This document shows positions 9,592 through 31,089 of a DNA stretch of 52,656 nt, in pieces (positions within the stretch are counted from its first letter, which is position 1; the number at the start of each line of letters is the position of its first letter). Both the position numbers and the translations under genes were made by a program. The notes beneath the pieces are model-generated. The model ran no database searches. It saw only the letters and a program-made list of their open reading frames with translations, and was not told where the DNA came from. Source of the DNA: Rhodovulum euryhalinum (GTDB taxonomy: Bacteria; Pseudomonadota; Alphaproteobacteria; Rhodobacterales; Rhodobacteraceae); the NCBI RefSeq assembly GCF_004342445.1, contig NZ_SLWW01000008.1:1-52656 (forward strand), in the 5' to 3' direction.

Positions 9592-10173
9592 CTAGCGCAG
9601 GCCGTCCAGCCCCGTGACCTCGTGGGCCGCAAGCCCGCCCATCCGGTTGTGGATCCGCGGCCCCCTGGCCATGGCCAGCGCCAGAAGCAATTCGTCCGCG
9701 CGCGGGCCATCGGGTACGCCCACCTCCATCGCGTCGAAATGGCTGCGGACATAGGCGGCGTTGATATGGCCCAGCGGCACGTCGATCCGCGCCCCCATGC
9801 CGCCCACCTTCATCGCCGAGGGCACGATCGCCCTGGCTTCGCCCAGCCGCTCGCGCATCGCGTAGCCGCCCGGCACGTGCCAGAGCGCGGCATGCTCGGC
9901 CTCGCCCGCCTCGCCCGCGATCGCGGCCTTGCCGTAGCCGTCGATCCCCTCGATGCCGCCCAGTGCCGCGATCAGCCGGTCCGTCATCTCGAGGCCCAGC
10001 GGCTTGAGATCGTCCATGCCCGGTTGCAGATCGGCCACATAGCCGCCCGCGTAGGGGTTCCGGACGATCGCCACGATGGCGCCGCGCAGGCGCGGGGCCG
10101 CGGGGGCCGGGCCGTTCTCGTGGCGGATTTCCTCAAGGATCGTCAGCATCTTGCGGACCGGAAAGTCAGGCAT
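9592..10173 (-). CDS. Amino-acid-synthesis family protein (PF06684/DUF1185)
   Basis: A 193-residue protein with the family hallmarks VRNPYAGGYVADLQPGMDDLKPLG, GIEGIDGYGKAAIAGEAGEAEHAAL and RADELLLALAMARGPRIHNR. No reaction is established for the family. From memory, the solved member has a variant chorismate-mutase-like fold, and the name comes from genome context. Here it is the last gene of a five-gene operon and overlaps the UPF0280 gene by eight bases, so a step in the same catabolic pathway is inferred. A ring-opening or isomerising activity on the reduced heterocycle would fit, but nothing in the sequence proves it. Confidence 0.85.
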   Translation of the reverse strand: MPDFPVRKMLTILEEIRHENGPAPAAPRLRGAIVAIVRNPYAGGYVADLQPGMDDLKPLGLEMTDRLIAALGGIEGIDGYGKAAIAGEAGEAEHAALWHVPGGYAMRERLGEARAIVPSAMKVGGMGARIDVPLGHINAAYVRSHFDAMEVGVPDGPRADELLLALAMARGPRIHNRMGGLAAHEVTGLDGLR

Positions 10174-11002
10174 GGATCGGCTCCCTTGGATCTGGATGGA
10201 AAAGCGCCGGGCCAAGGCTGCACGCCTGCCCGTTCAGCCGCAGATGCGCGCCGCCGATCAGGCCGCGTGCGATCAGCCGCCCGGCAAGCGCCGCGCCGGG
10301 GGCAAGGGCGTCCGCAGTCTCGGCCGCGCTCAGCGGGCCGAGACCGACAGTGACCGGGCGGGCGCCAAGATCGCTGTCCGGGGAAAGCTCGCAGGCCGGG
10401 CGGCGCCGGACCGCCGGGTGGCCCGGCAGGTCGACCGCGTTGGCGATCATCGTGGCGGCGGCGTCGGCCTCGGCCGCGGTGCGCGCGATCACCGTCACCG
10501 CATCCGCGATCCCCAGCGAGTGGCTACGGCCCCGCCAGCCCGAGGTCGCCACGCCGCGCCACGGCGCATCGGCCGCCAGCGCGATCCGCCCACCCGGCAT
10601 CGCGGCGGTCAGGGTCTCGCCGGGAGCAAAATGAAACGCCACATCGCCGCCGTTGTTGACATGGGCGCGCGTCAGCCCCGGCGCCGCGACCATCGCCGCC
10701 AGCACGGCATCGGCCACGGCACCCGCGACCGCCGCCATGGGCGTGATGAAGGCGGGGTGGAACGGCGCCGTGGCGGCGGCCATGGCGCGGGCGACTGCCC
10801 CCTGAAACGCCGCCTCGCCGGTCGGCAGGCGCAGCGCGGGCAACTCCTCGACCAGTTCCTCAAGAAGACCGTCGAATCGCCTGATCGCAAGGGAGAACGC
10901 CGCGTCGCGCCCCGCCCCCTCGGCCACGATCACAAGGTCGATCGGCCCGTGATGCAGGTGCAGCCGCCCGCCAGGCAACCATGCTGCCTGAACGCCGCTC
11001 AT
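10166..11002 (-). CDS. UPF0280 family protein (ApbE-like fold)
   Basis: A 278-residue member of UPF0280. Family features include HHGPIDLVIVAEG near the N-terminus, the HVNNGGDVAFHFAPGE segment and a GWRGRSHSLGIADAVTVIA stretch. Structural classifications place UPF0280 proteins in the ApbE-like superfamily, the fold of FAD:protein FMN transferases, but no UPF0280 function is established to my knowledge. The start is the ATG forming an ATGA overlap with the reductase stop. The open frame continues far upstream antisense-like through the reductase gene, and that extension is a shadow. Pairing with a reductase whose known relative carries covalent flavin suggests a flavin-attachment role. Confidence 0.88.
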   Translation of the reverse strand: MSGVQAAWLPGGRLHLHHGPIDLVIVAEGAGRDAAFSLAIRRFDGLLEELVEELPALRLPTGEAAFQGAVARAMAAATAPFHPAFITPMAAVAGAVADAVLAAMVAAPGLTRAHVNNGGDVAFHFAPGETLTAAMPGGRIALAADAPWRGVATSGWRGRSHSLGIADAVTVIARTAAEADAAATMIANAVDLPGHPAVRRRPACELSPDSDLGARPVTVGLGPLSAAETADALAPGAALAGRLIARGLIGGAHLRLNGQACSLGPALFHPDPREPIHA

Positions 11003-12456
11003 GGCCTTCCGCCCTTTGGCGGCAACGGCCCCGCGGGCGCGACCGCCCGCGCCGCGTCGCCGTATTCGCCGCCGTTCGCCAGGATGTCGGCGACGCTGCG
11101 GACCGCGTGGTCGTGGCCGCCCATCGCGCGGTAGTCCTCGCGCGTCAGGGTGAATTCCAGCGGCGCCACCAGCGCGGGCGTCGGCACCGAGCCGAACGAC
11201 CGCGCGGGCATCCGGGTGACGTCCACCATCAGCGTGATCCCGCCGCCCGGCCAGACCCAGGCGGGCGCGCCACCGCAGGTCACATGGGTCGCCCCGGCCT
11301 TGACCGATTGCGTCAGCCTGACCGGGTTGCGCGTGACCCCGGCGCGCAGCGACCCCCCCGCCCCCGCCGCGAACAGCACGTTGCACAGCGCCGGTTCGCA
11401 GTTCTGGGCGATCAGCTCCACCGTCTCGGCCAGCGCAGGCGGCATCGGGCGTTCGACGGGCCGCAGCGCCTCGTCCAGCACGTAGAAGGCCGCGTGTTCC
11501 CCGGTGGTCGAGACCATCAACAGGCTCAACCCCGGCCGCGCGCCGCGCTTCCCGTCCCACGGCCCCAGGATCGCCAAGGGGTCGGTCAGGTCGGTCCCGC
11601 CCCAGCCCAGCCCCGGCGCAGCCACCTGGAAATACCGCCCCGGCGTCGACCTGCGTCCCTTGATGCGGATGCCCGTGGGCGCCCAGCCCAGCACCTTGCC
11701 CGCCTGGTGTTCGGACATCACCCCGGTGATGTGGTCGTCGACCACCACCACCTCGTCCACCAGCCCCTGCCAGTGGGCGGCGAACATGCCGACGGTGGCC
11801 GACCCGCAGCCCACGCGCATCCGGTCCTCGGGCGTGCCGTCCACCACGGGCGGGCGGCCCGCCTGAACCACCACCTCGGCGCCGCCCTCGATCGTCAGCG
11901 TCACCGCCTCGCGGTTGCCAAGCGCCATCAGCGTCTCGCAGGTGACGCGCCCCTCGGATTTCGACCCGCCCGTCAGGTGATCGACGCCGCCCAGCGACAG
12001 CATCTGCGAGCCGTATTCCGAGGTCACGACCAGCCCCACCGCCTCGCCGTCCGCGCGCACCACGGCACCCTCGGGGCCCAGATGGCGGTCGGTGTCGATC
12101 TTCACCTTGACCCCGCAATAGGAATAGATCGCCTCGGTCACCACGGTGACGAAGTCGACGCCGTCGACCTCGCGGCTGACGATGAAGGGGGCGGGCTTGT
12201 AGTCGGGATAGGTCGTGCCCGCGCCGAGGCCGCTGACGAACAGCGCCCCGTCGGCGATCAGTCCGTCGTCCCAGTCCGCGCCGAGGAAAGGCCGCACCTC
12301 GTCGCCCGCGGCCAGCCGCGCGTCGAGGATGGTCAGCGGGTCGCAGCGGACCAGCCGCCCGCCCTCGTTCGCGTAGCGGTCGCAGGCCCCGGCCTGGCCG
12401 TCGGCGATGTAGCACATGACCGGGCAGGCGTCGCAGCGGATCTTGTCGTCGCTCAT
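10999..12456 (-). CDS. 6-hydroxynicotinate-reductase-like Fe-S protein
   Basis: A 485-residue protein of the family usually annotated 6-hydroxynicotinate reductase. The N-terminus carries a ferredoxin-like cysteine set C8-x2-C11-x3-C15-x9-C25. Further cysteines occur in YSYCGVKV, RVTCETL, VGCGSA, QNCEPALC and VTCGGAPA. The characterised Eubacterium barkeri enzyme reduces 6-hydroxynicotinate to the tetrahydro-oxo product using ferredoxin and, as I recall, contains covalent flavin and Fe-S clusters. The real substrate here is unknown: the neighbours do not include the E. barkeri enamidase. The segment A387-G-A-T390 resembles the core of ApbE flavinylation sites but lacks the usual upstream Asp and Ser/Thr. 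It overlaps its downstream neighbour and lies just inside the hydroxylase stop, so all are coupled. Confidence 0.82.
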   Translation of the reverse strand: MSDDKIRCDACPVMCYIADGQAGACDRYANEGGRLVRCDPLTILDARLAAGDEVRPFLGADWDDGLIADGALFVSGLGAGTTYPDYKPAPFIVSREVDGVDFVTVVTEAIYSYCGVKVKIDTDRHLGPEGAVVRADGEAVGLVVTSEYGSQMLSLGGVDHLTGGSKSEGRVTCETLMALGNREAVTLTIEGGAEVVVQAGRPPVVDGTPEDRMRVGCGSATVGMFAAHWQGLVDEVVVVDDHITGVMSEHQAGKVLGWAPTGIRIKGRRSTPGRYFQVAAPGLGWGGTDLTDPLAILGPWDGKRGARPGLSLLMVSTTGEHAAFYVLDEALRPVERPMPPALAETVELIAQNCEPALCNVLFAAGAGGSLRAGVTRNPVRLTQSVKAGATHVTCGGAPAWVWPGGGITLMVDVTRMPARSFGSVPTPALVAPLEFTLTREDYRAMGGHDHAVRSVADILANGGEYGDAARAVAPAGPLPPKGGRP

Positions 12457-15185
12457 GGCCCGCGCCCCGCCGCCCGGACCGCCGCCAGAACCCGGTGGGG
12501 CAGCGCCGGCACCCGGGTGATCCGCGCTCCGGTCGCGTGCGCGATGGCGTTCAGGATCGCCGGCGCGGTCGGGATCAGCGCGTGTTCGCCCAGGCCCTTG
12601 GCGCCCATCGGCCCCTCGGGGTCGGGCACCTCGACGAGGATCGTCTCGATCTCGGGCATGTCGCCGGTCGTGGGGATCAGGTAGTCGTGCAGGTTCTCGG
12701 TGCGGCCGGGGAGGTACTCCTCCATCAGCGCCAGGCCCAGCCCTTGCGCGATGCCGCCCTGCACCTGCCCCTCGGCCAGCGTCGGGTTGACCACGCGGCC
12801 GACATCGTGGGCGGCGGTGATCCGGATGACGCGGACGGTGCCAAGCTCGGTATCCACCTCGACCTCGGCCAGCTGCGCGCCATAGCCGTAGACCGCGTAA
12901 GGGCGCCCCTGCCCGTCGGCGTCGAGCGGTGCGGTGGGCGGGTCGTAGGTTTCCTCGGCCAGCAGCACGTAGCCATGGGCGATCTCGGGCAACGTGCCGA
13001 GGTCCAGCACCGTCTCGCCCTGCCCGTCCCGCACCACAAGCCGCCCGCCGTCGAAGCGCAGCGCCGCGTCATCGCCCCGGTTGGCACGGGCGAGGATCGC
13101 GGCCCTCAGCGCCCGGCCCGCCAGCACCGCGGCCTTGCCCGTCACCACGGTCTGGCGCGAGGCCGAGGTCTTACCGCAATCGGGCGTCAGCGCGGTGTCG
13201 GGGCCGATCAGGCCGATATCGCCCAGCGCCACGCCCAGCGCATCGGCCGCAAGTTGGGCGATCACCGTGTTCGACCCTTGCCCGATATCGGTCGCGCCCT
13301 GGTGCAGCCAGAGCCGCCCCTCGCGGGTGATCCCCAGCCGCACGGTCGACGGGTTGGGCAAGGCGGTGTTGCCGCAGCCATACCAGCAGGAGGCAAGCCC
13401 CGCGCCGCGTTTCACCACCGTCGAGCCCGCGTTGAACGCCGCCGCCTCGGCCCGGGCCGCCCGCCAGCGGGGGGCCAGCGCCGTCAGGCACTGGGCGATG
13501 CCCACCCCGCGCATCTCCTGACCGCAGACGCTGCGGTCGCCGTCGCGCAGCGCGTTTCGCAGGCGAAAGTCCAGCGGGTCCAGCCCGGCCGCCTCGGCCA
13601 GCCGGTCGAACAGCGTTTCCTGAAGGATCGCCGCCTGCGGCACGCCAAAGCCGCGAAAGGCCCCCGCGACCGGGTTGTTGGTGTGGATGGCCCGCGTCTC
13701 GGCCCGGTAGGCCGGCATCCGGTAGGGCCCCGAGGCATGGACCGGCACCCGGTTGGCGACCGTGGGGCCCCAACTGGCATAGGCCCCGGTGTCGAAGAGC
13801 CCGTCGAATTCCATCCCCGTCAGCCACCCCCCGGCGTCGCAGCCGATCCGCGCGGTCAGCCGGGCGGGGTGGCGCTTGGTGGTCGACATCATCGATTCCG
13901 CCCGGTCATAGACCATCCGGCAGGGCCGCCCGGTCGCCAGCGCCGCAAGCCCGATCAGCGGTTGCAGCGACAGGTCGAGCTTGGACCCGAAGCCGCCGCC
14001 CACCGCCGTTGGGACGATCCGCACCCGCGCGGGTGGCAGGCCCAGCACCCGCGCGGTGTCGTCGCGGTCCATCACGGGCGCCTGCGTGCAGGCATGGATC
14101 ACCAGCGTGCCGTCGGGCGCGATCTCGGCCCAGCCCGCCTCGGGCTCGATATAGGCGTGCTCGACAAACCCGGTCTCGACCGCCCCCTCGACCACGTGGG
14201 CCGACGCCGCCAGCGCCGCCGCGGCCCCGCCCGTGACCACGCGGCCCGCGGTCAGGAGGTTGCCGGGCCGCCCCGCGTGGATCGGGCGGGCGGCAGCGGC
14301 CCCGGCCGGGTCGGTGACGGGTGCCCCGGGATGCCAGACCACCGGAAAGGCGGACAGGTCCAGCCCCGCGACGGTCGCCGCCTCGCCCACCACCAGCGCC
14401 ACCGCCTCGCCGCGAAAGCGCGTCTCGGCCTCGGCCAGCGCCGGCTGGTCGGCGAAGGGCGGGATCACGCCAAAGCGGTTCTCGCCCTGGATGTCGGCCG
14501 CGGTCAGCACGCGCACGCCCCGTGCCGCTGCCCAGCCGGCCAGATCGCCGAAGGCAAAGCGCGCCGCGGCATGGGGCGCGCGCACCGCCCGGACCAGCAG
14601 CGCATCGACCGGCGCCCCGTCCGCGCCGAAGCGTTCGGCCCCGGTGACCTTGGGGCGCCCGTCCAGCCGTTCGACCGCCGCGCCGACCGCGGCACCGGCC
14701 ACCGGCCGCAGTGGCTCGGGGCCGGGCGCCACGTCGCAGACCGCGTCGAGAATCCGCGCATAGCCCGTGCACCGGCACAGGACACCGCCCAGCGCCGCCT
14801 CGGCCTCGGCCCGGGTCGGCCGCGGGGTCACGGCCAGAACCGCCGAGGCCGCCATCAGCATCCCCGGCGTGCAGATCCCGCATTGCGCCGCGCCATGGCG
14901 CAGGAAGGCCTCCTGCAGCCGCGACAGCCCTTCGGCCGACAGCCCCTCGACCGTGGTGATCGCACGCCCCAGGGCCTGCGCCAGCGGCGTGAGGCAGGCG
15001 CAGACCGGCGCGCCGTCCAGCAGCACCGTGCAGGCGCCGCAATCGCCCGCGTCGCAGCCGACCTTGGTGCCCTGCAACCGCAACTCCTCGCGCAGCACCT
15101 CGGACAGGCGGCGGCCCGGCGGGCTGGAAACCCGGACCTCGGCGCCGTTGACCCGAAGCGTTGCGAGCGTCTCGGGACGGTTCAT
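12453..15185 (-). CDS. Xanthine-dehydrogenase-family hydroxylase, fused [2Fe-2S] and molybdopterin subunit
   Basis: A 910-residue fusion that hydroxylates a ring carbon with water as oxygen donor. The N-terminal 160 residues hold both [2Fe-2S] clusters: C44-x4-C49-x2-C52-x11-C64 and C102-x2-C105-x31-C137-x-C139. The rest is the molybdenum-binding region with GGGFGSK, AFRGFGVPQ, TDIGQGSNT and the catalytic glutamate E867 in GAKGLGEHAL. The start is the ATG at 15185, in an ATGA overlap with the FAD gene; the longer frame upstream is a shadow. Canonical alphaproteobacterial xanthine dehydrogenase instead fuses [2Fe-2S] with FAD, so this is probably a hydroxylase for another N-heterocycle or aldehyde. 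Confidence 0.92.
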   Translation of the reverse strand: MNRPETLATLRVNGAEVRVSSPPGRRLSEVLREELRLQGTKVGCDAGDCGACTVLLDGAPVCACLTPLAQALGRAITTVEGLSAEGLSRLQEAFLRHGAAQCGICTPGMLMAASAVLAVTPRPTRAEAEAALGGVLCRCTGYARILDAVCDVAPGPEPLRPVAGAAVGAAVERLDGRPKVTGAERFGADGAPVDALLVRAVRAPHAAARFAFGDLAGWAAARGVRVLTAADIQGENRFGVIPPFADQPALAEAETRFRGEAVALVVGEAATVAGLDLSAFPVVWHPGAPVTDPAGAAAARPIHAGRPGNLLTAGRVVTGGAAAALAASAHVVEGAVETGFVEHAYIEPEAGWAEIAPDGTLVIHACTQAPVMDRDDTARVLGLPPARVRIVPTAVGGGFGSKLDLSLQPLIGLAALATGRPCRMVYDRAESMMSTTKRHPARLTARIGCDAGGWLTGMEFDGLFDTGAYASWGPTVANRVPVHASGPYRMPAYRAETRAIHTNNPVAGAFRGFGVPQAAILQETLFDRLAEAAGLDPLDFRLRNALRDGDRSVCGQEMRGVGIAQCLTALAPRWRAARAEAAAFNAGSTVVKRGAGLASCWYGCGNTALPNPSTVRLGITREGRLWLHQGATDIGQGSNTVIAQLAADALGVALGDIGLIGPDTALTPDCGKTSASRQTVVTGKAAVLAGRALRAAILARANRGDDAALRFDGGRLVVRDGQGETVLDLGTLPEIAHGYVLLAEETYDPPTAPLDADGQGRPYAVYGYGAQLAEVEVDTELGTVRVIRITAAHDVGRVVNPTLAEGQVQGGIAQGLGLALMEEYLPGRTENLHDYLIPTTGDMPEIETILVEVPDPEGPMGAKGLGEHALIPTAPAILNAIAHATGARITRVPALPHRVLAAVRAAGRGP

Positions 15186-16033
15186 GCCACGGCCCTTTCG
15201 GCGCAAAGCCCCGCCACCGCCCGGCGCAACAGCGTCAGGGCGGCGCGGGTCCGATAGGCGGCGGGCGCCCGGTGATCGTCGATCGGGGCCAGCGCGCGGG
15301 CGACAATCCCGGCGGTGATCGCATCGGCCAGCCCCGCATCGGCCCGTCGCCCGCGCAGCGCCGCCTCGGCGTCGGGCAGGCGCCGGGCCGTCGCGCTGCA
15401 CGCGCCCACAGCAAGCGCGGCATGGGCGACGCGGCCCGCCTGGATGTCCAGCCGGACCGCGGCCATGGCGATGGAGATGACCAGGTATCGCCGCGCGCCC
15501 AGCTTGAGGAACGCCCCCTGCCCCGCGCCCGCCGCGCGCGGCACATGGATCGCGGTCAACAGTTCGTCGGCCGCGCGCGCGGTCTGCCGCGGGCCGGTAA
15601 GGAAATCGGCCACGGCCAGCCGCCTTGTGCCGCGGTGCGAGGCCAGTTCCACCTCGGCATCCAGCACCAGCCAGCAGGGCGCCCCATCCGCCGCGGGCGA
15701 GGCGTTGACAAGGTTGCCGCCCACGGTCCCCGCGGTCTGGACCTGCACGGAGCCCACCTCGCGCGCCGCGGCCCTGAGCCCGTCGAACCCCGGCGGCAAT
15801 CCGGCCCGGGCGATCTCGGCCCAGGATGTCGTGGCGCCGATCCGCCAGCCCGCAGCACTTTCCCCGATGCCGCGAAGGCCCTCGATCGCGGTGATGTCGA
15901 GTATCCCCCCCGAAAGCCCCGGCCCCCGCGTTGCCGGAAACAGGTCGGTGCACCCCGCCGCGACGCGCAAGCCGCCGCCCGCCAGCGCCTCGAGCGCCTC
16001 GGCCAGCGTGCGGGGCCGCAGATAGGGGGCCAA
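15182..16033 (-). CDS. FAD-binding subunit of molybdenum hydroxylase (CoxM/XdhB type)
   Basis: A 283-residue flavoprotein subunit that passes electrons from the [2Fe-2S] clusters to an acceptor. Family motifs are AAGCTDLFPA (FAD pyrophosphate loop, about 23-32), TAGTVGGNLVNASPAADGAP (about 101-120) and the CO_deh_flav_C region. The start is a TTG at 16031-16033, chosen because AGGAAGAGGTG lies just upstream and residue 2 onwards (APYLRPRTLAEALEAL) is the usual family N-terminus. The frame extends to 16324, but that part runs through the regulator promoter and is not coding. It is the first gene of the operon. Confidence 0.9.
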   Translation of the reverse strand: MAPYLRPRTLAEALEALAGGGLRVAAGCTDLFPATRGPGLSGGILDITAIEGLRGIGESAAGWRIGATTSWAEIARAGLPPGFDGLRAAAREVGSVQVQTAGTVGGNLVNASPAADGAPCWLVLDAEVELASHRGTRRLAVADFLTGPRQTARAADELLTAIHVPRAAGAGQGAFLKLGARRYLVISIAMAAVRLDIQAGRVAHAALAVGACSATARRLPDAEAALRGRRADAGLADAITAGIVARALAPIDDHRAPAAYRTRAALTLLRRAVAGLCAERAVA

Positions 16034-16137: not shown

Positions 16138-16563
16138 ATGGCCCGGACCACCGACGCCCCCTATGTGCTGGATGCGCAGGTGGGGTTCCTGATGCGCAAG
16201 GCGACCCAGCGCCACCTGTCGATCTTTGCCGCACATATCCCGGACCTGACGCCCACCCAGTTCGCCACCCTTGCCAAGCTGTACGAGCGCGGCCCCACAA
16301 CCCAGAACGCGCTGGGGCGGGCAACGGCGATGGATGCGGCCACGATCAAGGGCGTGGTGGACCGGCTGCGCGCGCGGGGGCTGGTGGCAAGCGCGCCCGA
16401 TCCGGCGGACTGCCGGCGGGTCTCTGTCCGCGCGACGGCCGAGGGGCGCAGGGCCTTCGAGGGGCACGCGCGTGCCGCCCACGCCATCACCCGCGAGACT
16501 CTGGCGCCGCTGACGCCCGCCGAGCAGGAGATGTTCCTGCGGCTGCTGGCAAGGCTGGGCTGA
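16138..16563 (+). CDS. MarR family transcriptional regulator
   Basis: A 141-residue winged-helix regulator. The DNA-binding region LTPTQFATLAKLYERGPTTQNALGRATAMDAATIKGVVDRLRARGLV and the wing (DPADCRRVSVRATAEGRRAFE) are typical of MarR. The ATG at 16138 has CGGAG upstream; longer in-frame starts would run through the operator. It is divergent from the hydroxylase operon and ends three bases from the convergent ABC ATPase gene. MarR proteins usually repress the adjacent operon and are released by the pathway substrate, so it is the likely local regulator. Confidence 0.92.
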   Translation: MARTTDAPYVLDAQVGFLMRKATQRHLSIFAAHIPDLTPTQFATLAKLYERGPTTQNALGRATAMDAATIKGVVDRLRARGLVASAPDPADCRRVSVRATAEGRRAFEGHARAAHAITRETLAPLTPAEQEMFLRLLARLG

Positions 16564-16566
16564 GGC

Positions 16567-17262
16567 TCAGACGCCGAGATAGCGTTTCAGCACCGCGGGA
16601 TCGGCGCGCAGATCGGCGGCGTCCACCGTCTCGCGGGCCCGGCCGTTCTCGATGAACACCACCCGGTCGGCCGCTGACAGCACGGCATCGAGCCGCTGTT
16701 CCACCAGCAGGATCGCCACGCCCTCGGCCTTCATCCGGATCACCACCTGCCGGATCGCCTCGATCATCGAGGGTTGCAACCCCTCGGTGGGCTCGTCCAG
16801 CAGCAGCACGCGGGGCTCAAGGCACAGCGCCCGGGCGGTGGCCAGCATCTGCTGTTCGCCCCCCGACAGCGTCTCGGCGCGCTGGCCCATCCGGTCTGCC
16901 AGTCGGGGAAACAGCTCCAGCACGCGGTCCAGCACCTGCGGCGGGCTGCGGCGCGTGCGCATGCCGATTTCAAGGTTCTGCGCGACGGTCAGTTCCGAGA
17001 ACAGCCGGCGCCCCTGCGGGATATAGCCGATGCCGCGGCGCGGCACCTCGTGGGCGGGCAGGCTGCCGATATCCGCGCCGTCCAGCGTGATGCGGCCCGC
17101 CTTCAGCGGCAAAAGCCCCATGATCACCTTCATCGTGGTGGTCTTGCCCGCGCCGTTGCGGCCCAGCAGGCAGGTGATCTCGCCCGGCCGCGCGCTCAGC
17201 GACAGGCCGCGCAGCACCTGCACCGGGCCATAGCCCGCGTCGATGCCCCGCACCTCAAGCAT
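16567..17262 (-). CDS. livF: Branched-chain-amino-acid-type ABC transporter ATPase (LivF)
   Basis: A 231-residue ATPase of the HAAT family, powering uptake through the LivH/LivM pair. It has the Walker A motif GRNGAGKTT, LSGGEQQ signature and Walker B LLLDEPTEG. The YIPQGRRLFSELTVAQNLEIG segment is characteristic of LivF/UrtE-type subunits. It overlaps livG by eight bases and is last in the transporter operon. The family carries amino acids, urea and amides, and the cargo here is probably the heterocycle or its breakdown product. Confidence 0.93.
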   Translation of the reverse strand: MLEVRGIDAGYGPVQVLRGLSLSARPGEITCLLGRNGAGKTTTMKVIMGLLPLKAGRITLDGADIGSLPAHEVPRRGIGYIPQGRRLFSELTVAQNLEIGMRTRRSPPQVLDRVLELFPRLADRMGQRAETLSGGEQQMLATARALCLEPRVLLLDEPTEGLQPSMIEAIRQVVIRMKAEGVAILLVEQRLDAVLSAADRVVFIENGRARETVDAADLRADPAVLKRYLGV

Positions 17263-17980
17263 CCGCGCCGGTCCCCAGATAGGCGGTCTGCACGGCCGCG
17301 CTGGCGTGGATCTCGGCAGGGCTCCCTTCGGCCAGCACCTCGCCGAAATTCAGCACGGTGATGCGGTGGGCCAGTTCCATCACCACGCCCATGTTGTGCT
17401 CGATCAGCAGGATCGTGGTCTCGCCCGCCAGATCGCGGATCAGCACCTTGAACGCCTCGATCTCGCTATCGGCAAGCCCTTGCGTCGGCTCGTCCAGGAT
17501 CAGCAGCCGCGGCCTCTGCGCCAGCCCCATGGCCAGTTCCAGCAGCCGCTGGTGGCCATAGCTCAGATCGCCCGGAAGCGCGCCCGCATGGGCGCCAAGC
17601 CCCACCCGGTCCAGCGCCGCGGCACTCTCGCGCGCCACCGCCGCCCGGTCGCGGCCAAGGCGGCGGCGGGCGGCCAGCGCGACGTTCTCGGCCACCTCCA
17701 GCCGGGCGAAGACGCTGGTGATCTGGAAGGTATAGGCCATGCCCAGCGCCACGCGCGCATGGGCGGGCAGGCGCGTGATATCGCGGCCGTCGAAAGCGAT
17801 ACTGCCCGAGGTTGGCGCGACCCGCCCGATCAGCATCGACACGAAGGTGGTCTTGCCCGCCCCGTTCGGCCCGATCAGCGCACGGATCTCGCCCGGGGCC
17901 AGATCGAAATCGACCTCGTGGACAGCCCTGAGCCCCCCGAAGGATTTCGACAGCGCCCGGGTGGACAACAGCGCGCTCAT
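17255..17980 (-). CDS. livG: Branched-chain-amino-acid-type ABC transporter ATPase (LivG)
   Basis: A 241-residue ATPase partner of LivF. It has Walker A GPNGAGKTT and Walker B LLILDEPTQGL; the signature is LSYGHQRLLELAMG rather than LSGG, as in other LivG/UrtD-type proteins. The frame is open to 18178, but the ATG at 17980 overlaps the livM stop (ATGA) and the upstream extension lacks family similarity. The C-terminus (EGSPAEIHASAAVQTAYLG) is the usual LivG end. Confidence 0.93.
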   Translation of the reverse strand: MSALLSTRALSKSFGGLRAVHEVDFDLAPGEIRALIGPNGAGKTTFVSMLIGRVAPTSGSIAFDGRDITRLPAHARVALGMAYTFQITSVFARLEVAENVALAARRRLGRDRAAVARESAAALDRVGLGAHAGALPGDLSYGHQRLLELAMGLAQRPRLLILDEPTQGLADSEIEAFKVLIRDLAGETTILLIEHNMGVVMELAHRITVLNFGEVLAEGSPAEIHASAAVQTAYLGTGADA

Positions 17981-18915: not shown

Positions 18916-19835
18916 CGCGCGCGTTTCCCCATCAGGCCCTCGGGGCGGAACACCAGCACGAAGGCCACCAGCAGCGTGGCGATGATCTTGGCCAGCGTCG
19001 GCGAGAAGAAGACCGAGATGATGCCGTCCGACATGCCGATGAGGATTGCGGCGATCACCGTGCCCGCCAGACTGCCAAGCCCCCCGATGATCACCACGAT
19101 GAAGGACAGCAGCAGAGCGTCGCCCCCCATCAGGTAATGCGCCTGCTGGATCGGCACGATCAGCACGCCCGCCAGCGCCGCCAGCGCCGCGCCCAGGCCG
19201 AAGACCAGCGCATAGACCCGCTCGACCGGGATGCCGAAGGCCTGCGCCATCTCGCCGTCAAGCTGGGTCGCGCGCATCATCAGGCCGATGCGGGTATGGG
19301 TCATCAGCGCCCAGAGCCCGGCCAGAACGGCGGCCGCGGCACCGATCACGAACAGCTTGTAGCTGGTGATCGACAGCCCCCAGGGCCAGTAAAGCTGTGG
19401 CCCGCCCTGCCCCCATTCCACCCAGGGCAGCGCGATCCGCGCGTTGAACGGGGGTTCCACCGGCCGCGCCTCGGGGCCATAGCCCATCAGTGTCAACTGT
19501 TGCAGGATATAGAGCAGGCCGATCGTGGCGACGATGGTGCGTTCGGGATCGTAGTCCAGGTGCTTCAGCACGGTGACATCGGCCGCCGCCGCCACCGCGC
19601 CCACGACCAGCGGCGCCACCGCCAGCGCCAGGACAAAGCCCGCAGCGCCCCCGCCCGCCATCGAGGCCACGACCCAGGCCAGCACCGCGCCCAGCATGTA
19701 GAACTCGCCATGGGCGACGTTCACGACCCGCATCACCCCGAAGACGAGGCTGAGCCCCGCCGCCATCAGCGCCAGCACCGCGGCCGTCACCGCGCCTTCG
19801 AGCGAGGCGAGCATCAGATAGGGACCGAAATCCAT
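18912..19835 (-). CDS. livH: Branched-chain-amino-acid-type ABC permease (LivH)
   Basis: A 307-residue inner-membrane permease. Family motifs include GLSLVFGVMRVVNVAHGEFYMLGA near the N-terminus and the C-terminal VIIGGLGSLAGTVIAAILIGMSDG. It starts 53 bases after the binding-protein stop, a common spacing between the abundant binding protein and its permeases. Confidence 0.94.
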   Translation of the reverse strand: MDFGPYLMLASLEGAVTAAVLALMAAGLSLVFGVMRVVNVAHGEFYMLGAVLAWVVASMAGGGAAGFVLALAVAPLVVGAVAAAADVTVLKHLDYDPERTIVATIGLLYILQQLTLMGYGPEARPVEPPFNARIALPWVEWGQGGPQLYWPWGLSITSYKLFVIGAAAAVLAGLWALMTHTRIGLMMRATQLDGEMAQAFGIPVERVYALVFGLGAALAALAGVLIVPIQQAHYLMGGDALLLSFIVVIIGGLGSLAGTVIAAILIGMSDGIISVFFSPTLAKIIATLLVAFVLVFRPEGLMGKRAR

Positions 19836-19888: not shown

Positions 19889-21190
19889 TCAGAAGGACCG
19901 GGTCGTGTAGTCCACCTCGTCGGGGTAGAACCCGGCCTCGATGGGGGTGGTCTGCACCACGTTAAGCCGCCCGCCTTCGAGCTTCGAGATGTATTGCGGC
20001 CCGAACACCTGGTGGGTCTTGCCGTTGAACAGCTTCGCCCCCTGCGGATGTTCGTTGGACAGCGGCCACTCGGTCATCGCCTCGACCGCCTCGATCAGTT
20101 TCTGCCGGTCGGCCGGCCCGGCATAGCCCGCCGCCTCCATCCCCGCCTTGATGACGTAAAGCGTCTCCCAGCAGCCGAACATGTGAGCATAGGTCGACAC
20201 GTCCTTCGGATCGCGGGTGGACGCGCCGTTCTGGTCGATGCCGATGGCCGCGCGGTAATGGCGGTCGAACTCGGTCTGGTCGGGCTGGGCATAGCGTGCC
20301 ATCCCCTCCCAGAAATAGGTTCCTTCCAGGAATTCCAGCCCGGGGCTGGCAAGGTCCACCGCCTCAAGGCTGTCGATGAAGCCGAAGATCGCGGGGCGCG
20401 AGGGGCCGAAGAACTCGCCCATCTCCTTGACGAAGGTCAGCACGGCGGGGCCGACCATGACGTGATAGATCACCTCGGTCTCGCGGGGTATCTTGGGAAA
20501 ATACTTGGTGAACGAGGTTTCGGTGGGCGGGATCGCAAGCTTTGCGATCACCTCGCCGCCATTCGCGGCCATTGCCTCGGTAAAGAAATCGCGGTGGTCG
20601 TGGCCAAAGGCATAGTCGGGGAAGATCATCGTGACCTTCTTGCCGAGCGTTTCCGCCACGAAGGGCGCCATTGCCATCACCTGGCTTTTCACGTCGGTGA
20701 TGCCGGGCTGGACGGTCCAGCGGTTCAGCTTGCCCGAGGCGACGTGATGCCCCTCGGACACCACGAAATAGGGCAGTTGCAACTCGCCCGCCCGCGGGGC
20801 CGAGCCCATCACCACGTGGCTGAACAGCGTGCCGTAGCCCACGTCGCAATTATGCTGGGTGGCGAATTTCTCGACCACCTCGGCGCCGCGCTTGGGGTCG
20901 GTGCCGTCATCCTCGGTGATGATCTCGACCGGGCGGCCGTTGATGCCCCCCGCCTCGTTGATCAGCCGGGCCGCGGCCTGGGTGGTGCGGTCGTACCAGC
21001 GGCCATAGGCCGACCCGATCCCGGTGGCGTGCATCTGGAACCCGATGCGGATCGGCGCGGCGGTCTGGGCGTGGGTGTAGCGCGCCCAGAGCGGCAGGCT
21101 GGTCGCCGCCGCGGCGCCCGCCAGCGTCGCGATCGCGGACCGGCGGGAAGGATCGGCCGGGCCGGCCGAAGGCGTCTTGGTCTCGGTCAT
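19889..21190 (-). CDS. ABC substrate-binding protein, Liv/amide type, Tat signal
   Basis: A 433-residue periplasmic binding protein (Peripla_BP_6 type). The N-terminus has a twin-arginine signal (SRRSAIATLAGAAAATSLPLW) ending at HAQTA. The mature part shows IRIGFQMHATGIGSAYGRWYD, AARLINEAGGINGRPVEIITEDD and the YAFGHDHRDFFTEAM segment, nearest to amide/urea-type binders rather than classic LivK. It is co-directional with the permease genes and 91 bases after the membrane-protein stop. The ligand is not predictable from sequence; a cyclic amide matching the catabolic genes is the contextual guess. Confidence 0.9.
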   Translation of the reverse strand: MTETKTPSAGPADPSRRSAIATLAGAAAATSLPLWARYTHAQTAAPIRIGFQMHATGIGSAYGRWYDRTTQAAARLINEAGGINGRPVEIITEDDGTDPKRGAEVVEKFATQHNCDVGYGTLFSHVVMGSAPRAGELQLPYFVVSEGHHVASGKLNRWTVQPGITDVKSQVMAMAPFVAETLGKKVTMIFPDYAFGHDHRDFFTEAMAANGGEVIAKLAIPPTETSFTKYFPKIPRETEVIYHVMVGPAVLTFVKEMGEFFGPSRPAIFGFIDSLEAVDLASPGLEFLEGTYFWEGMARYAQPDQTEFDRHYRAAIGIDQNGASTRDPKDVSTYAHMFGCWETLYVIKAGMEAAGYAGPADRQKLIEAVEAMTEWPLSNEHPQGAKLFNGKTHQVFGPQYISKLEGGRLNVVQTTPIEAGFYPDEVDYTTRSF

Positions 21191-21281
21191 GGTCTGTTCC
21201 CCGGTGGACGGCGTTGTCTGGTTATGGCGCCAGTCTGTCGGGGCGCCACCGCTTTGTCCACGGCTTTGCGGGCGGGCGGGC

Positions 21282-22652
21282 TCAGACCCCGCGGGGTGAG
21301 GCCAGCAGCCACAGCCCGAACAGCGTGTACAGCACCATGAAGGCGGCCAGCGGCGCCTGGCTGAGCGCGGCCTTGCGCGGATTGCCGAAAAGACGCACGG
21401 CAAGCGCGTGCGACAGCGCGATGGCGATCGCGTGGCCGATCACGATGGCGCCCGCCTGCGCCAGGAAGATCAGCCGCACGGTCTCGTGGGTGTTGAAAAA
21501 GCTGGTGGTGACGTGGACATGGTCGATCCCCAGCAGATGCGCCCCGCTGTCGAGCGGGTCGTTGGCCACCGCCAGCATGTACTGCCCCTCGACCAGGATC
21601 GAGGGCAGGTAATGCGCGACGTGATAGCCCAGCGCGATCGGCAGCAGCGCCGGGGCGAATGTCCGGAACGCAGGACCGAACCGCGCGATTTCCCCGGCAA
21701 GCATCAGGCCGACCGCGACGGCGGCGGCAAAGAGGGCGGGCAGCACGACCAGCGCGGCGGCAAGCCCGGCAAGGTTCTCGCGCACCACCAGGCTGCGGCC
21801 GGGAAATTCCAGCGGGTTCCAGCCAAGCTGGCCGAACCACCAGAAGGTCTCGTTCAGCCCGTCATAACTGCCAACCGCCAGCATCGCCACCATGAAGACC
21901 GCAAGGCCCCAGGGCGGCGCGCGGCGCGCCATCACCTTCCACCCCGGCAGGCCCAGGCGCCAGCGTCCGCGCGCCGCGCCAAGGGGCGCGATGCGGGCAT
22001 AGGCGCCCATCAGCACGGTGATGCCCTCGCCGCGCCGCAGCCATTTCGGCCCGAAGGCCAGCGCGAGCGCGAAGTGAAAGGCCCAGTAGCAGGCGACCAT
22101 GGCCGCCAGCCGCTCGGGGTCGGCGGGGGCGGGATGGGCCAGCAGCACCGCGGCAAAACCGGCGAAACTGGCCAGCGCGGGCCAGTGGCCCAGCGCCGCG
22201 GGCAACCGGAACCGGGCGGGGCGGCGGCGCAGGACCAGCGCGACCGGCCCGCGCCACGGGTCGATCCAGCGCCAGAGGTCGCCGGCCATGCCCTGCACAA
22301 GCACGAGCACGATCCAGAACAGGCTCCAGACCGCCAGCGACAGCGGGTTCTCCATCGGGTTGTGGGCGCCCAGGAGGCCGAGGACCACCAACCCCGCAAG
22401 CAGGGCGAAAGACAGCAGGGCGAGAGCAAGCGGCGGGCGCAGGCGGCGGCTGCGGATCAGCGGCAGCGGGCGGAAAATCCCGGTGGCAAGCCGGTCGGGA
22501 AGCACGGTGACCAGAAGGATCGTCAGCACCACAGCGGCGACACCGCCGCCGATATAGAAATCGGTTGGCAGAAGCAGCACAAGCCCGCCCTCGGTCGCGT
22601 GGGCGTGGACGGGCGCGGGCAGCAGCCCGAGGAGAAGGACAAGGCGGCGCAT
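21282..22652 (-). CDS. Multi-pass membrane protein of unknown function
   Basis: A 456-residue protein with a signal-like N-terminus (MRRLVLLLGLLPAPVHAHA) and about ten hydrophobic segments. No transporter motif is recognised. The C-terminal half holds conserved-looking polar clusters in membrane context: YHVAHYLPSILVEGQYM and GIDHVHVTTSFFNTHETVRL, which could bind metal. The general layout recalls membrane proteins annotated fenitrothion hydrolase in other bacteria, but that is a weak resemblance. The frame runs on to 25046, antisense to hyuA; only the part from the ATG at 22652 has a membrane-protein composition. It is divergent from hyuA and could be co-transcribed with the ABC genes downstream. 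Confidence 0.8.
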   Translation of the reverse strand: MRRLVLLLGLLPAPVHAHATEGGLVLLLPTDFYIGGGVAAVVLTILLVTVLPDRLATGIFRPLPLIRSRRLRPPLALALLSFALLAGLVVLGLLGAHNPMENPLSLAVWSLFWIVLVLVQGMAGDLWRWIDPWRGPVALVLRRRPARFRLPAALGHWPALASFAGFAAVLLAHPAPADPERLAAMVACYWAFHFALALAFGPKWLRRGEGITVLMGAYARIAPLGAARGRWRLGLPGWKVMARRAPPWGLAVFMVAMLAVGSYDGLNETFWWFGQLGWNPLEFPGRSLVVRENLAGLAAALVVLPALFAAAVAVGLMLAGEIARFGPAFRTFAPALLPIALGYHVAHYLPSILVEGQYMLAVANDPLDSGAHLLGIDHVHVTTSFFNTHETVRLIFLAQAGAIVIGHAIAIALSHALAVRLFGNPRKAALSQAPLAAFMVLYTLFGLWLLASPRGV

Positions 22653-22877: not shown

Positions 22878-24941
22878 ATGGGCGAAGCGGAACCCGGCCT
22901 GGTGGCAGGGATCGACGTGGGGGGGACCTTCACCGATCTGGTGCTGATGGACCCCGCGACCGGAGCCGTGCGATTGGCCAAGGTGCCGACGACGCCCGCG
23001 AATCAGGCCGAAGGCGTGCTGGCGGCGCTGGACGCGGCGGGGGCGGATCTGTCGCGGGTCGATCTGATCGTGCACGGCACGACGACCACCACCAACGCCG
23101 TGCTCGAACGCAAGCTGGCGCGCACCGGCATGATCACCACCGCGGGATTTCGCGACGTGCTGGAACTGGGGCGGCGCACCCGGCCAGCGCCTTACGGGAT
23201 GGTGGGCCGCTTCGTGCCGATCATCCCGCGCGACCTGCGCCTCGAGGTGGCCGAACGGATGGATGCCGCGGGCGATGCCGTCGTCCCGCTGGACGAGGCC
23301 GGCGTCGCGGCGGCGGGCCGGGCGCTGCTGGCGGCGGGCTGCGAGTCTGTGGTGGTGCATTTCCTGCACGCCTATGCCAACCCCGCGCATGAGCGGCGGG
23401 CGGGCGAGATTCTGGCCGGACTCTGGCCGAACGGGCATGTGACGCTGGGCCATGCGCTGTTGTCCGAGAGCCGCGAGTTCGAACGGGGCGTGACCGCGGC
23501 GGTGAACGCCGCCGTCCAGCCCCTGCTGGAACGCTATGTCGCGCGGCTGAGGACAGAGCTGGCGGCGCGCGGCTATGCGGGCGACCTGCTGGTGATGAAT
23601 GGCAACGGGGGCATGGTCTCGGCCCGGACCGTGGCCCGCGAGGCAGCCAAGACCGTGATGTCGGGCCCCGCCTCGGGGGTGATGGCGGCGGCGCATATCG
23701 GGCGGCGCGCGGGCGTTCCCGACCTCATCACCTATGACATGGGCGGCACCTCGACCGATGTGGCGCTGATCCGGGGGGCCGAGCCCCCGGTGTCGAACGA
23801 GATCGAGGTGGATTACGCCCTGCCGATCCATGTGCCGATGGTGGATGTGCGCACCGTGGGTGCGGGCGGGGGTTCGATCGCGCGGGTGAACGCCGCCGGA
23901 TTGCTGGAGGTCGGCCCCGAAAGCGCGGGCGCGGTGCCGGGGCCGATCTGCTATGGCCGGGGCGGGGCCGACCCCACGATTTCCGACGCGAACCTGGTAC
24001 TGGGGCGGCTCGACCCGGACAAGCTGCCCTCGGCCGCGGGGGGACCGGCGCGGGACGCCGTGGCGGCGGTCTTCGCAGAACGGCTGGGAGCACCGCTGGG
24101 GCTGGATGCGGTGGCGGCGGCCGAGGCGGTGATCCGGCTGGCGAACGTGAAGATGGCGGGCGCGATCCGGATGGTGTCGGTGTCGCTGGGGGCCGACCCG
24201 CGGGATTTCACCTTGCTGGCCTTCGGGGGGGCCGGGCCGCTGCATGCCTGCGCACTGGCCCGCGAACTGGGCATCCCGCGCGTGCTGGTGCCCGGCCGGC
24301 CGGGCATCACCAACGCGCTGGGCTGCGTCGTCGCCGATCTGCGCCACGATTTCGTCACCACGCTGAACATGGCCCTCGACCGGCTGGACGAGGACCGGCT
24401 GGCGCAGGTCTTTGCCGGGCAGGCCGCCGAGGGCGCGGCGCTGATCGGGGCCGAAAGGGTGGCGATCCGGGCCGTGCGGCATCGCTTCAGCCTTGACATG
24501 CAGTTCATCGGGCAGACGCATCTTCTCCGGGTCGATCTGGACGGGCCCGATGTCGACCGGAACACCCTGCGCCGCAAGTTCGCCGAGGCCTATTTCGCCC
24601 GCTTCCGGGTGGATCTGGGCGAGGGGCGCGCGGCGGTCGTCAACGCGAACTGCTCGGTGATCGGGGAACGCGCGGGGCTGGACCTCTCGCGGCTGATCGC
24701 GCCCTCGGGCCGCAAGGCGACCCTGGAGGAGGCGCGAACCGGGCAACGCGACTGCCGGTTCGCGGGGCAATGGCACCCGACGCCCGTCTACTGGCGCGAC
24801 CATCTGCCCGCACGGTTCACGCTGACCGGCCCGGCGATCGTCGAGCAGATGGACTGCACCATCCTGATCGAGCCCGGCGACCGCGTGGAACCCGACGCCG
24901 ACGGCAACCTGATCGTCACCATCGGAGGCGGCGATGCTTGA
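22878..24941 (+). CDS. hyuA: Hydantoinase/oxoprolinase family protein, subunit A
   Basis: A 687-residue ATP-dependent cyclic-amide hydrolase subunit with an actin-like ATP fold. Markers are GIDVGGTFTDLVL at the N-terminus, VHGTTTTTNAVLERK (about 60-75), MGGTSTDVALI (about 287-297) and AFGGAGPLHACALARELG. The family includes N-methylhydantoinase, 5-oxoprolinase and acetone carboxylase subunits; the arrangement with a separate B subunit fits hydantoin or oxoproline-like substrates. GGGGAG lies seven bases before the ATG. A copy of the MarR-type palindrome is 18 bases upstream, which ties it to the hydroxylase operon. Confidence 0.93.
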   Translation: MGEAEPGLVAGIDVGGTFTDLVLMDPATGAVRLAKVPTTPANQAEGVLAALDAAGADLSRVDLIVHGTTTTTNAVLERKLARTGMITTAGFRDVLELGRRTRPAPYGMVGRFVPIIPRDLRLEVAERMDAAGDAVVPLDEAGVAAAGRALLAAGCESVVVHFLHAYANPAHERRAGEILAGLWPNGHVTLGHALLSESREFERGVTAAVNAAVQPLLERYVARLRTELAARGYAGDLLVMNGNGGMVSARTVAREAAKTVMSGPASGVMAAAHIGRRAGVPDLITYDMGGTSTDVALIRGAEPPVSNEIEVDYALPIHVPMVDVRTVGAGGGSIARVNAAGLLEVGPESAGAVPGPICYGRGGADPTISDANLVLGRLDPDKLPSAAGGPARDAVAAVFAERLGAPLGLDAVAAAEAVIRLANVKMAGAIRMVSVSLGADPRDFTLLAFGGAGPLHACALARELGIPRVLVPGRPGITNALGCVVADLRHDFVTTLNMALDRLDEDRLAQVFAGQAAEGAALIGAERVAIRAVRHRFSLDMQFIGQTHLLRVDLDGPDVDRNTLRRKFAEAYFARFRVDLGEGRAAVVNANCSVIGERAGLDLSRLIAPSGRKATLEEARTGQRDCRFAGQWHPTPVYWRDHLPARFTLTGPAIVEQMDCTILIEPGDRVEPDADGNLIVTIGGGDA

Positions 24942-26703
24942 CCCGATCACGCTGTCAGTGATCCAGGCGGGGCTGATGCAGGTCTGCGACGAGATGGACC
25001 TGACGTTTTCGCGCGCCGCGTTCTCGCCGGTGATTGCCGAGGCCAACGACCGTTCGGACGGGATCTATGCCGCCGCGGACGGGGCGCTGATCGCGCAAGG
25101 GTCGGGCGGGTTGCCGGTCTTCGTCGGCACGATGCAGTATTCCACCCGCGTCCTGATAGAACGGATCGCGGCGGGGATCACCGCCCCGCCCGAGCCCGGC
25201 GACACCTACATCGTCAACGACCCCTATCTGGGCGGCACGCATCTGATGGACGTGCGCTTTGCCCGGCCGTTCTACCGGGATGGCCGCATCTTCTGCTGGC
25301 TGTCGAATACCGGGCACTGGCCGGACACGGGCGGCGCGGTGCCGGGGGGGTTCTCGGCGTCCGCCACCAGCGTCGAGCAGGAGGGGCTGCGGCTGCCGCC
25401 GGTGAAGCTGTTCAAGCGCGGCGAGATGGACCGGGAGATCTACCAGATCATCTGTTCCAACATCCGCGTCGCTGACCAGCGGATCGGCGATGTCAAGGCA
25501 CAGGCCGCGGCGCTGTCGGTGGGCGAGGAACGGCTTGCCGCGCTGCTGGATCGCTATGGCGACGACACCGTGCGCGCGGCCATTGCCGAACTGAGAACCC
25601 GCGCCGCGCGGCAGATGCGCGCCTTCATCGCCACGATCCCCGAAGGGCCGCACCGCTCCGTCGCCTGGGTCGACAGCGACGGGGTCGTGAACGAACCGCT
25701 TGCGATCCGTCTGGCCGTCACCCGGGCGGGCGACGACCTGGTGTTCGACTTCACCGGGTCCTCACCGCCCTGCGCGGGGCCGATGAACTCGGTCGAGGCG
25801 ACGACGCTGTCCTCGGTCTACCTGGCGATGCGCCACATCTTCCCGGAACTCCCGATCAGCGCGGGCGCGTTCGAGCCGGTGAAGGTTACCGGCCACCGGG
25901 GCACCTTTCTCGACGCGCATTATCCGCGCCCCGTCTCGGGCTGCGCCGCCGAGGTCAGCCAACGGATCGCGGAAGCCGTGTTCGCCGCGCTGGTGGACGC
26001 CCTGCCCGACCGCGTCACCGCCGCACCCGCGGGCACCTCGGGGAACTTTGCGCTGGGCGGGCACGATCCCGAACGCGGCAGCGACTACGTGATGTACCAG
26101 CTTTCAGGCGGCGGCTATGGCGGCAACGCCGACCACGACGGGCTGGCCAACGGCTGTTCGACGATCGGCATTTCCAAGGCGCCGCCGATCGAGATCATGG
26201 AGCAGAAATTCCCCGTGCTCTACCGCCACTACCGGCTGCGCGAAGGGTCTGGCGGTGCCGGGCGGCACCGGGGCGGCCTGGGGCTCGACTACGAGGTGGA
26301 ACTGAGGCGCGGCATGGCGCGGGCAAGCTTCGTGATGGACCACGGACGGTTCGGCCCGCAAGGCGCGCTGGGGGGCGCGGACGGCGCGCCCAACCGGGTC
26401 GTCGTCACCCGGAACGGGCACGAGGAAACCCCGGAACACCTGTCCAAGGCGCAGGACATCCCGCTGGCCCCCGGCGACCGGGTGCGGGTGGAAACGCCGG
26501 GTGGCGGGGGCTATGGCGATCCGCTGACCCGTGATCCCGAGGCCGTGGCCGAGGATGTGCGCCTCGGCCGTCATACCCGGGACGCAGCGCGCGCGCTCTT
26601 CGGAGTCGTGCTGACGGGCGAGCCACCACGGCCCGACCCCGAGGCCACCCGGACCCTGCGCGCCGAACGCACCCGGGGGGCGGCTGATCCGCAGCACGCC
26701 TAG
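24934..26703 (+). CDS. hyuB: Hydantoinase/oxoprolinase family protein, subunit B
   Basis: A 589-residue HyuB subunit that works with HyuA to open a cyclic amide at the cost of ATP. Family features are SPVIAEANDRSDGIYAADGA, NDPYLGGTHLMDVRFARPFY, NTGHWPDTGG and the C-terminal LSGGGYGGNADHDG and EGSGGAGRHRGGLG. It overlaps hyuA by eight bases. Its stop overlaps, tail to tail, the convergent Cys-rich protein gene by four bases. Confidence 0.93.
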   Translation: MLDPITLSVIQAGLMQVCDEMDLTFSRAAFSPVIAEANDRSDGIYAAADGALIAQGSGGLPVFVGTMQYSTRVLIERIAAGITAPPEPGDTYIVNDPYLGGTHLMDVRFARPFYRDGRIFCWLSNTGHWPDTGGAVPGGFSASATSVEQEGLRLPPVKLFKRGEMDREIYQIICSNIRVADQRIGDVKAQAAALSVGEERLAALLDRYGDDTVRAAIAELRTRAARQMRAFIATIPEGPHRSVAWVDSDGVVNEPLAIRLAVTRAGDDLVFDFTGSSPPCAGPMNSVEATTLSSVYLAMRHIFPELPISAGAFEPVKVTGHRGTFLDAHYPRPVSGCAAEVSQRIAEAVFAALVDALPDRVTAAPAGTSGNFALGGHDPERGSDYVMYQLSGGGYGGNADHDGLANGCSTIGISKAPPIEIMEQKFPVLYRHYRLREGSGGAGRHRGGLGLDYEVELRRGMARASFVMDHGRFGPQGALGGADGAPNRVVVTRNGHEETPEHLSKAQDIPLAPGDRVRVETPGGGGYGDPLTRDPEAVAEDVRLGRHTRDAARALFGVVLTGEPPRPDPEATRTLRAERTRGAADPQHA

Positions 26704-31084: not shown

Positions 31085-31089
31085 GGGCT

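Follow-up and report, generated by a model that had tools for sequence, protein, structure and literature searches.

A predicted reductive nicotinate locus in Rhodovulum euryhalinum with HyuAB as the probable ring opener

What does a gene cluster degrade that combines a molybdenum hydroxylase, a relative of 6-hydroxynicotinate reductase and an ATP-dependent hydantoinase, and which of its enzymes opens the ring? Such a cluster lies at positions 9592–26703 of the stretch analysed here (the window), positions 1 to 52,656 of contig NZ_SLWW01000008.1 of Rhodovulum euryhalinum, whose genome measures 3.79 Mb; the G+C content of the window is 69%. An operon of five minus-strand genes, a divergent gene for a MarR-family regulator, genes for a Liv-type importer and hyuAB are all present where the original prediction had placed them. 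That prediction saw an undescribed system for an unknown nitrogen heterocycle. We consider it likely that the locus is a reductive nicotinate catabolic system of the kind known from Azorhizobium and Eubacterium barkeri, with HyuAB as the ring opener. We infer the substrate and every reaction from the facts that sequences supply: gene content, linkage, exchanges of parts and exclusive distribution.

In the proposed pathway, the Liv importer would bring in nicotinate or a precursor of it, and the enzyme formed by the FAD subunit and the [2Fe-2S]/molybdopterin subunit would hydroxylate nicotinate at C6. The 6-hydroxynicotinate-reductase-like protein (HNR), a predicted Fe-S protein, would then reduce 6-hydroxynicotinate to 1,4,5,6-tetrahydro-6-oxonicotinate (THON). 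HyuAB would use ATP to activate the lactam carbonyl of THON and would hydrolyse the ring in the stead of enamidase, and the enamine so formed would lose ammonia to give 2-formylglutarate, on the way towards glutarate. For E. barkeri and Azorhizobium, both THON and the hydrolysis of its ring to 2-formylglutarate have been described (PMC9304392; this and all other papers are cited for those parts of them that were available). The MarR protein would probably sense 6-hydroxynicotinate, the ApbE-like protein UPF0280 would be a partner or a cofactor or maturation factor of HNR, and the PF06684 protein would act at or after ring opening and be dispensable when HyuAB is used.

The ring opener

HyuA (22878–24941, plus strand, ATG start at 22878), the ATPase subunit, and HyuB (24934–26703, plus strand), the hydrolase subunit, are encoded by genes that overlap by 8 bases. 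The Hydantoinase_A and Hydant_A_N domains of HyuA, the Hydantoinase_B domain of HyuB (535 bits) and the ATP-site motifs kept in HyuA (DVGGTFTD, DMGGTSTD and FGGAGP) place the pair in the hydantoinase/oxoprolinase family. The nearest solved relative of HyuA is N-methylhydantoinase, followed by 5-oxoprolinase. In the mechanism proposed for the family, phosphorylation of the lactam, in its lactim form, takes place in subunit A and cleavage in subunit B; bicarbonate is a further requirement of caprolactamase (PMC8453981). The window pair resembles caprolactamase (CapAB), 5-oxoprolinase and N-methylhydantoinase as a two-subunit ATP-dependent lactam hydrolase with its ATP motifs kept, and differs from them in its predicted substrate, THON. 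By the NCBIfam equivalog cut-offs of 1000 each the pair is not CapAB itself, with scores of 478.9 and 332.2.

We found HNR in 44 of 289 alphaproteobacterial genomes. A HyuB orthologue (at least 61% identity) occurs in 27 of them and an enamidase orthologue (at least 66%) in the other 17; no genome has both, and none has neither. Among the 245 HNR-free genomes, HyuB occurs in two and enamidase in one (Fisher test for association with HNR, P = 3e-24 and 9e-15, values that ignore kinship). The 44 genomes belong to 28 families, with HyuB in 17 and enamidase in 12; one family has both types, in different genomes. Six HNR genomes of one family (f159) carry an enamidase orthologue and show no HyuB at E 1e-120. 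The source genome has no enamidase match at E 1e-60 and holds HyuAB instead. HNR was also present in 21 of 299 genomes drawn from the phylum, four of which were in the first sample as well. The remaining 17, together with 10 relatives, formed a second set of 27 HNR genomes, in which HyuB was found in 14 (once, in G029, as a fragment with stops), enamidase in 13 and neither in none.

In the sample of 289, HyuB lies within 25 kb of HNR in 16 of the 27 HyuB genomes, and enamidase in 12 of the 17 enamidase genomes. At the level of loci (n = 135; HyuA at 50% identity or more or HyuB at 60% or more, enamidase at 50% or more), 41 hold HyuAB, 13 hold enamidase, none holds both and 81 show neither in the available stretch; most of these 81 end short of the opener's possible place, and whole-genome counts were used for absence. 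On a tree of 54 HNR sequences, built by a quick method and leaving out two loci with a broken HNR (L027 and L148), the opener type switches about ten times, at least four of them on strong branches. Because both opener types are intermixed on this tree, the same reductase appears to work with either opener, which fits a common product, THON. The broken copies are an HNR in two pieces in G064 (L148) and an HNR and a HyuB with several stops in G029 (L014/L027); they are either decaying copies or assembly errors.

Because HyuAB and enamidase are distributed in this complementary way among HNR genomes, HyuAB most likely opens THON with ATP, replacing enamidase. The original prediction had proposed uptake, ring hydroxylation, reduction and opening by a hydantoinase in place of enamidase. 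Comparison supports this series of steps, and the complementary distribution supports the opener strongly.

The substrate and the regulator

The hydroxylase consists of an FAD subunit (15182–16033, minus strand), with XdhB-type NCBIfam matches below their cut-offs, and a fused [2Fe-2S]/molybdopterin subunit of the xanthine-dehydrogenase family (12453–15185, minus strand; Fer2, Fer2_2 and MoCoBD_1/2 domains), which is a predicted nicotinate 6-hydroxylase. The FAD gene starts with TTG at 16033, with a purine-rich stretch upstream. This molybdenum hydroxylase, identified at the level of domains, adjoins HNR. The nicotinate fermentation of E. barkeri has 6-hydroxylation followed by reduction to THON in common with the proposed pathway; it uses enamidase where the window has HyuAB. 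Its nicotinate dehydrogenase (3hrd) has separate large, medium and small FeS chains, unlike the fused [2Fe-2S]/molybdopterin subunit of the window. We take both this entry and the solved enamidase 2vun to be from E. barkeri.

Three kinds of genes in related loci point to nicotinate as the substrate. A nicotinamidase-like gene (at least 40% identity to one isochorismatase-fold protein) occurs in 25 of the 135 HNR loci, nine of them of the HyuAB type; the one member tested scores 221.7 against NF008623 (cut-off 174) and matches the solved nicotinamidase 2wt9 at 4e-70. The amidohydrolase of the enamidase-type relatives matches 2vun at 2.4e-111 in the one member tested (L112). Finally, NicAB replaces the FAD/molybdenum enzyme in some relatives: of three plasmid loci, two have it annotated as nicotinate dehydrogenase, and in the third it carries no name. 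NicB (at least 50% identity) was found in G472, G511, G599, G600 and G601, all of which lack an orthologue of the FAD/molybdenum enzyme at E 1e-150. The last three hold loci L055, L060 and L078, in which MarR is directly followed by HNR without window-type hydroxylase genes, the NicB orthologues lying elsewhere in those genomes. The searches for the two hydroxylases took in 43 and 19 genomes and shared 15, of which eight have the FAD/molybdenum enzyme without NicB (the source genome G000, G579, G129, G140, G246, G204, G102 and G123), five have NicB, none has both and two have neither (G077 and G029). Outside the NicB search, G351 and G588 lack the FAD/molybdenum orthologue, and at least part of it is present in G384 and G100. 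HyuAB-type genomes with NicB are those of L111, L113, L055, L060 and L078, and G472.

A cluster of similar make-up has been published as a nicotinate degradation cluster in Azorhizobium, Bradyrhizobium, Rhodopseudomonas and strain SG-6C, with a reductase 42% identical to that of E. barkeri; SG-6C breaks down 6-chloronicotinate via 6-hydroxynicotinate (PMC3511419). The view that the system is undescribed is thus not supported, and the nicotinamidase-like, NicAB and enamidase genes give the "unknown nitrogen heterocycle" a probable name. The published cluster (in Azorhizobium caulinodans and the other three) is said to comprise the genes for the first three steps. It was found with the E. barkeri cluster and so presumably uses enamidase, whereas the window has HyuAB and no enamidase.

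The MarR-family gene (16138–16563, plus strand, ATG start at 16138; Pfam MarR) is divergent from the FAD gene, with 104 bases between them. A simple script found no exact or near-exact inverted repeat of at least 8 bases in this gap that might serve as an operator. The protein is 50–54% identical to the MarR proteins of three related loci, two of which are annotated nicR. In BpsR, the four contacts with 6-hydroxynicotinate are Tyr15, Arg26, His32 and His23 (PMC6837509). Residues Y9, R20 and H26 of the window protein share the spacing of the first three, BpsR having been matched by spacing and not by alignment; among 88 sequences they are conserved in 87, 88 and 76, respectively. The fourth contact, His23, corresponds to Phe17. 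The MarR protein is a predicted 6-hydroxynicotinate-responsive repressor.

The partners of the reductase

The original prediction had proposed a survey of gene neighbourhoods across genomes. Our first survey took in 92 HNR loci, 12 from relatives and 80 from genomes (the best 80 of at least 588 relatives, including Roseovarius, Shimia, Sulfitobacter and other Rhodobacteraceae, Mesorhizobium, Aminobacter and SAR116). Along with HNR, 89 of these loci contain UPF0280, 89 the [2Fe-2S]/molybdopterin subunit, 80 the FAD subunit, 74 PF06684 and 65 MarR, counts that are lowered by the many contigs that end early. The co-occurrence of HNR with these five partners exceeds chance. HyuA is near HNR in 21 of the 92 loci, within limited flanks. 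The enlarged set of 135 loci leaves out two weak matches (L002 and L016) and shorter copies (L001 and L003–L015); one locus, L029, is a piece of the window itself. In the operon of the window, the junctions overlap by 4, 4, 4 and 8 bases in the order FAD subunit, [2Fe-2S]/molybdopterin subunit, HNR, UPF0280 and PF06684.

HNR (10999–12456, minus strand) was identified by its annotated relatives: 26 plasmid proteins are 61–71% identical to it, and 17 of these are annotated as 6-hydroxynicotinate reductase. It has an N-terminal CxxCxxxCx9C motif, and its cysteines 8, 11, 15, 25, 114, 173, 217 and 353 are invariant in 42 sequences. No Pfam model matches HNR; a hidden relationship to DUF39 was pursued with Pfam up to E 10 and dropped, the window protein giving no match in a search whose HMMER filters remove most weak hits. 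In 14 of the 135 loci (for example L037, L044, L111 and L112), HNR has a ferredoxin-NADP-reductase-like gene nearby, whose product could be an electron source for HNR.

UPF0280 (10166–11002, minus strand; NF003322 at 339 bits, cut-off 290) is tied to HNR. NF003322 matches were found in all 44 HNR genomes, two of them below the cut-off on split contigs, and the 245 HNR-free genomes gave one weak match (G179, 29.5 bits). The gene is present in 132 of the 135 loci; of the other three, two (L028 and L149) break off no more than 850 bases from where HNR starts, and on L053, a contig of 5.7 kb, other genes come next. Because UPF0280 stays with HNR no matter which hydroxylase or opener is present, it most likely acts on behalf of HNR itself, as a partner or as a cofactor or maturation factor. 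The best PDB match of its structural model (predicted local distance difference test score, pLDDT, 95) is 2o34, followed by ApbE flavin transferases. The likeness is one of fold: the protein falls outside the ApbE flavin transferase family, with 7.5 bits against a Pfam ApbE cut-off of 25.6. ApbE modifies a target motif, and on that basis we inspected one GSAT stretch of HNR (residues 218–221). Two of ten aligned sequences have another residue in place of its threonine, and the idea that UPF0280 covalently flavinylates HNR was dropped.

We take UPF0280 to be COG2122. The statement that UPF0280 and PF06684 have no assigned reaction holds strictly. Members of COG2122, however, have a genetic role: they are needed for homocysteine synthesis in Desulfovibrio (DvMF_0044) and, at low sulfide, in Methanosarcina (MA1715) (PMC5764234). 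The fold is alike, 2o34 being a Desulfovibrio protein. In contrast to these proteins, window UPF0280 is linked to HNR and belongs to another subfamily, NF003322 falling below its cut-off in M. acetivorans and M. jannaschii.

PF06684 (DUF1185, AA_synth; 9592–10173, minus strand, ATG start at 10173; Pfam 222 bits, cut-off 27) overlaps UPF0280 in the window. Its solved relatives, 3byq and 2qtp, are structures without a known reaction. The family occurs in 39 of the 44 HNR genomes (those without it, G102, G220, G232, G269 and G317, are all of the HyuB type), sometimes away from HNR, and in 17 of the 245 HNR-free genomes. The copies in clade a, which includes that of the window, mostly overlap UPF0280. 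Clade b (23 sequences, support 1.0) comprises the copies of all 13 enamidase loci, a further six from loci whose genomes have enamidase and four from HyuAB loci, and lies within 1.5 kb of enamidase in 10 of the 13. In three of the seven more diverged enamidase relatives listed (40–42% identity), PF06684 lies within about 120 bases: at G096:C7:28200-29929 and G238:C292:15581-17333, both in HNR-free genomes, and at G246:C1:100028-101842, a second place in that genome. These pairs perhaps open the ring of another heterocycle. From the linkage of clade b to enamidase and the copies beside diverged enamidases, part of the PF06684 family seems to be linked with the opening of rings and not with HNR.

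The importer is encoded on the minus strand by genes for a LivF-type ATPase (16567–17262; ABC_tran), a LivG-type ATPase (17255–17980; ABC_tran and BCA_ABC_TP_C), LivM- and LivH-type permeases (17977–18915 and 18912–19835; both BPD_transp_2) and a LivK-type substrate-binding protein (19889–21190; Peripla_BP_6). LivF occurs in 60 of the 92 loci at 55% identity or more; a looser count of 71 takes in distant ATPases. Over the 135 loci, 66 have the Liv type of the window, 20 have a second type in which one long permease gene replaces it (L019, L024–L026, L112, L119, L122–L126, L130, L131, L134, L136, L141, L143, L147, L148 and L152), none has both and 49 show neither in the available stretch. Between LivK and HyuA lies a gene absent from the original list (21282–22652, minus strand), for a membrane protein of 456 residues with eight hydrophobic segments and no Pfam match, the latter searched with a slightly longer frame. 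It has tblastn matches in 39 of the 92 loci, often just upstream of LivK (at least 35% identity in 31), which indicate that it is kept at this position. The operon is followed directly, on its own strand, by a gene for a chemoreceptor with a dCache_3 sensory domain (7359–9494, minus strand); the 92 first-survey loci gave no match to it, and all 135 gave one, at 29% (L135). Just past HyuB, genes for proteins with trypsin-like and peptidoglycan-binding domains (26942–33000, minus strand) are probably unrelated to the operon.

Alternatives and significance

Several points weigh against HyuAB as the opener of THON and against nicotinate as the substrate. The 61% cut for HyuB was chosen after the list had been seen, and five HNR-free genomes hold relatives at 56–58%; with a 55% cut these five count as well, and the exclusion within the HNR set is unaltered. 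The opener lies far from HNR or on another contig in 11 of the 27 HyuB genomes (four beyond 25 kb, seven on another contig) and in five of the 17 enamidase genomes (one and four), and two HyuB genomes of the second set (G431 and G498) also hold an enamidase relative of 60–62% elsewhere. Enamidase needs no ATP; hence the gain from an ATP-driven opener of THON is hard to see. The best solved match of the molybdenum subunit is an aldehyde oxidoreductase, not nicotinate dehydrogenase. The HNR model (pLDDT 78) has no PDB match at E ≤ 0.001; we claim no fold for it, and flavin and Fe-S binding are predictions. The published cluster was itself assigned by homology to E. barkeri and from SG-6C metabolites (PMC3511419). 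In P. putida NicR the BpsR contacts are not kept (PMC6837509), and the window MarR was compared by spacing alone.

One might therefore ask whether HyuAB and the importer are mere neighbours, serving the use of hydantoins or amino acids, with the true opener elsewhere. Both families are large and common, and the 11 HyuB genes away from HNR would fit. We regard this as highly improbable: all 27 enamidase-free HNR genomes hold HyuB at 61% or more, against two of 245 HNR-free genomes, and the source genome gave no enamidase match at E 1e-60. Another explanation is that the HyuAB lineages use a different pyridine, N-methylated (such as trigonelline or homarine) or picolinate, and need HyuAB for an N-substituted or fully saturated lactam. 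Saturated lactams and hydantoins are indeed substrates of HyuAB-family enzymes (PMC8453981), the solved structure nearest to HyuA bears the name N-methylhydantoinase, and a conserved homarine pathway of environmental bacteria has been published (reference in PMC13390433). The nicotinamidase-like gene in nine HyuAB-type loci, NicB in HyuAB-type genomes and the intermixing of both HNR types on one tree, which makes the same reduced product likelier, leave this quite unlikely. The homarine (hom) operon itself, suggested by the gene name homABCDER, was set aside except as part of this alternative, the nicotinamidase-like, NicAB and enamidase links favouring nicotinate.

An unlikely role for PF06684 would be that of a RidA-like enamine hydrolase releasing ammonia after HyuAB has opened THON. 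Opening of the lactam is expected to yield an enamine, and the RidA/YjgF family presumably shares the fold class of PF06684. The distribution, however, runs the wrong way round: PF06684 is absent from five of the 27 HyuB genomes and present in all 17 enamidase genomes, and one of its clades goes with enamidase, which in E. barkeri carries out both steps alone (PMC9304392). We rejected this role.

Among the papers listed in our literature searches, which did not reach most of the subscription literature (the original E. barkeri and Azorhizobium papers among it), none linked HyuAB to the nicotinate pathway or THON. The pathway is known; within that scope, the exchange of the opener and the strict pairing of HNR with UPF0280 appear unreported. 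In the available literature, the reductive nicotinate route opens its ring with enamidase. If the exchange for HyuAB is a clean one, a natural substrate would be found for one branch of the large ATP-dependent lactamase family, a branch present in 27 of the 44 HNR-bearing alphaproteobacteria of our sample. The cluster allows nicotinate consumers among marine and soil alphaproteobacteria to be predicted, and the strict UPF0280 pairing makes the function of COG2122 testable in rhizobia and roseobacters. More tentatively, and with rather less than even confidence, we suggest that HyuAB is an ATP-dependent lactamase specific for THON and has been swapped with enamidase many times, and that UPF0280 is an obligate ApbE-fold partner of HNR. 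If this is true, COG2122 proteins would be general helpers of Fe-S enzymes, and the reductive nicotinate route would be tied to the COG2122-dependent homocysteine pathway of anaerobes.

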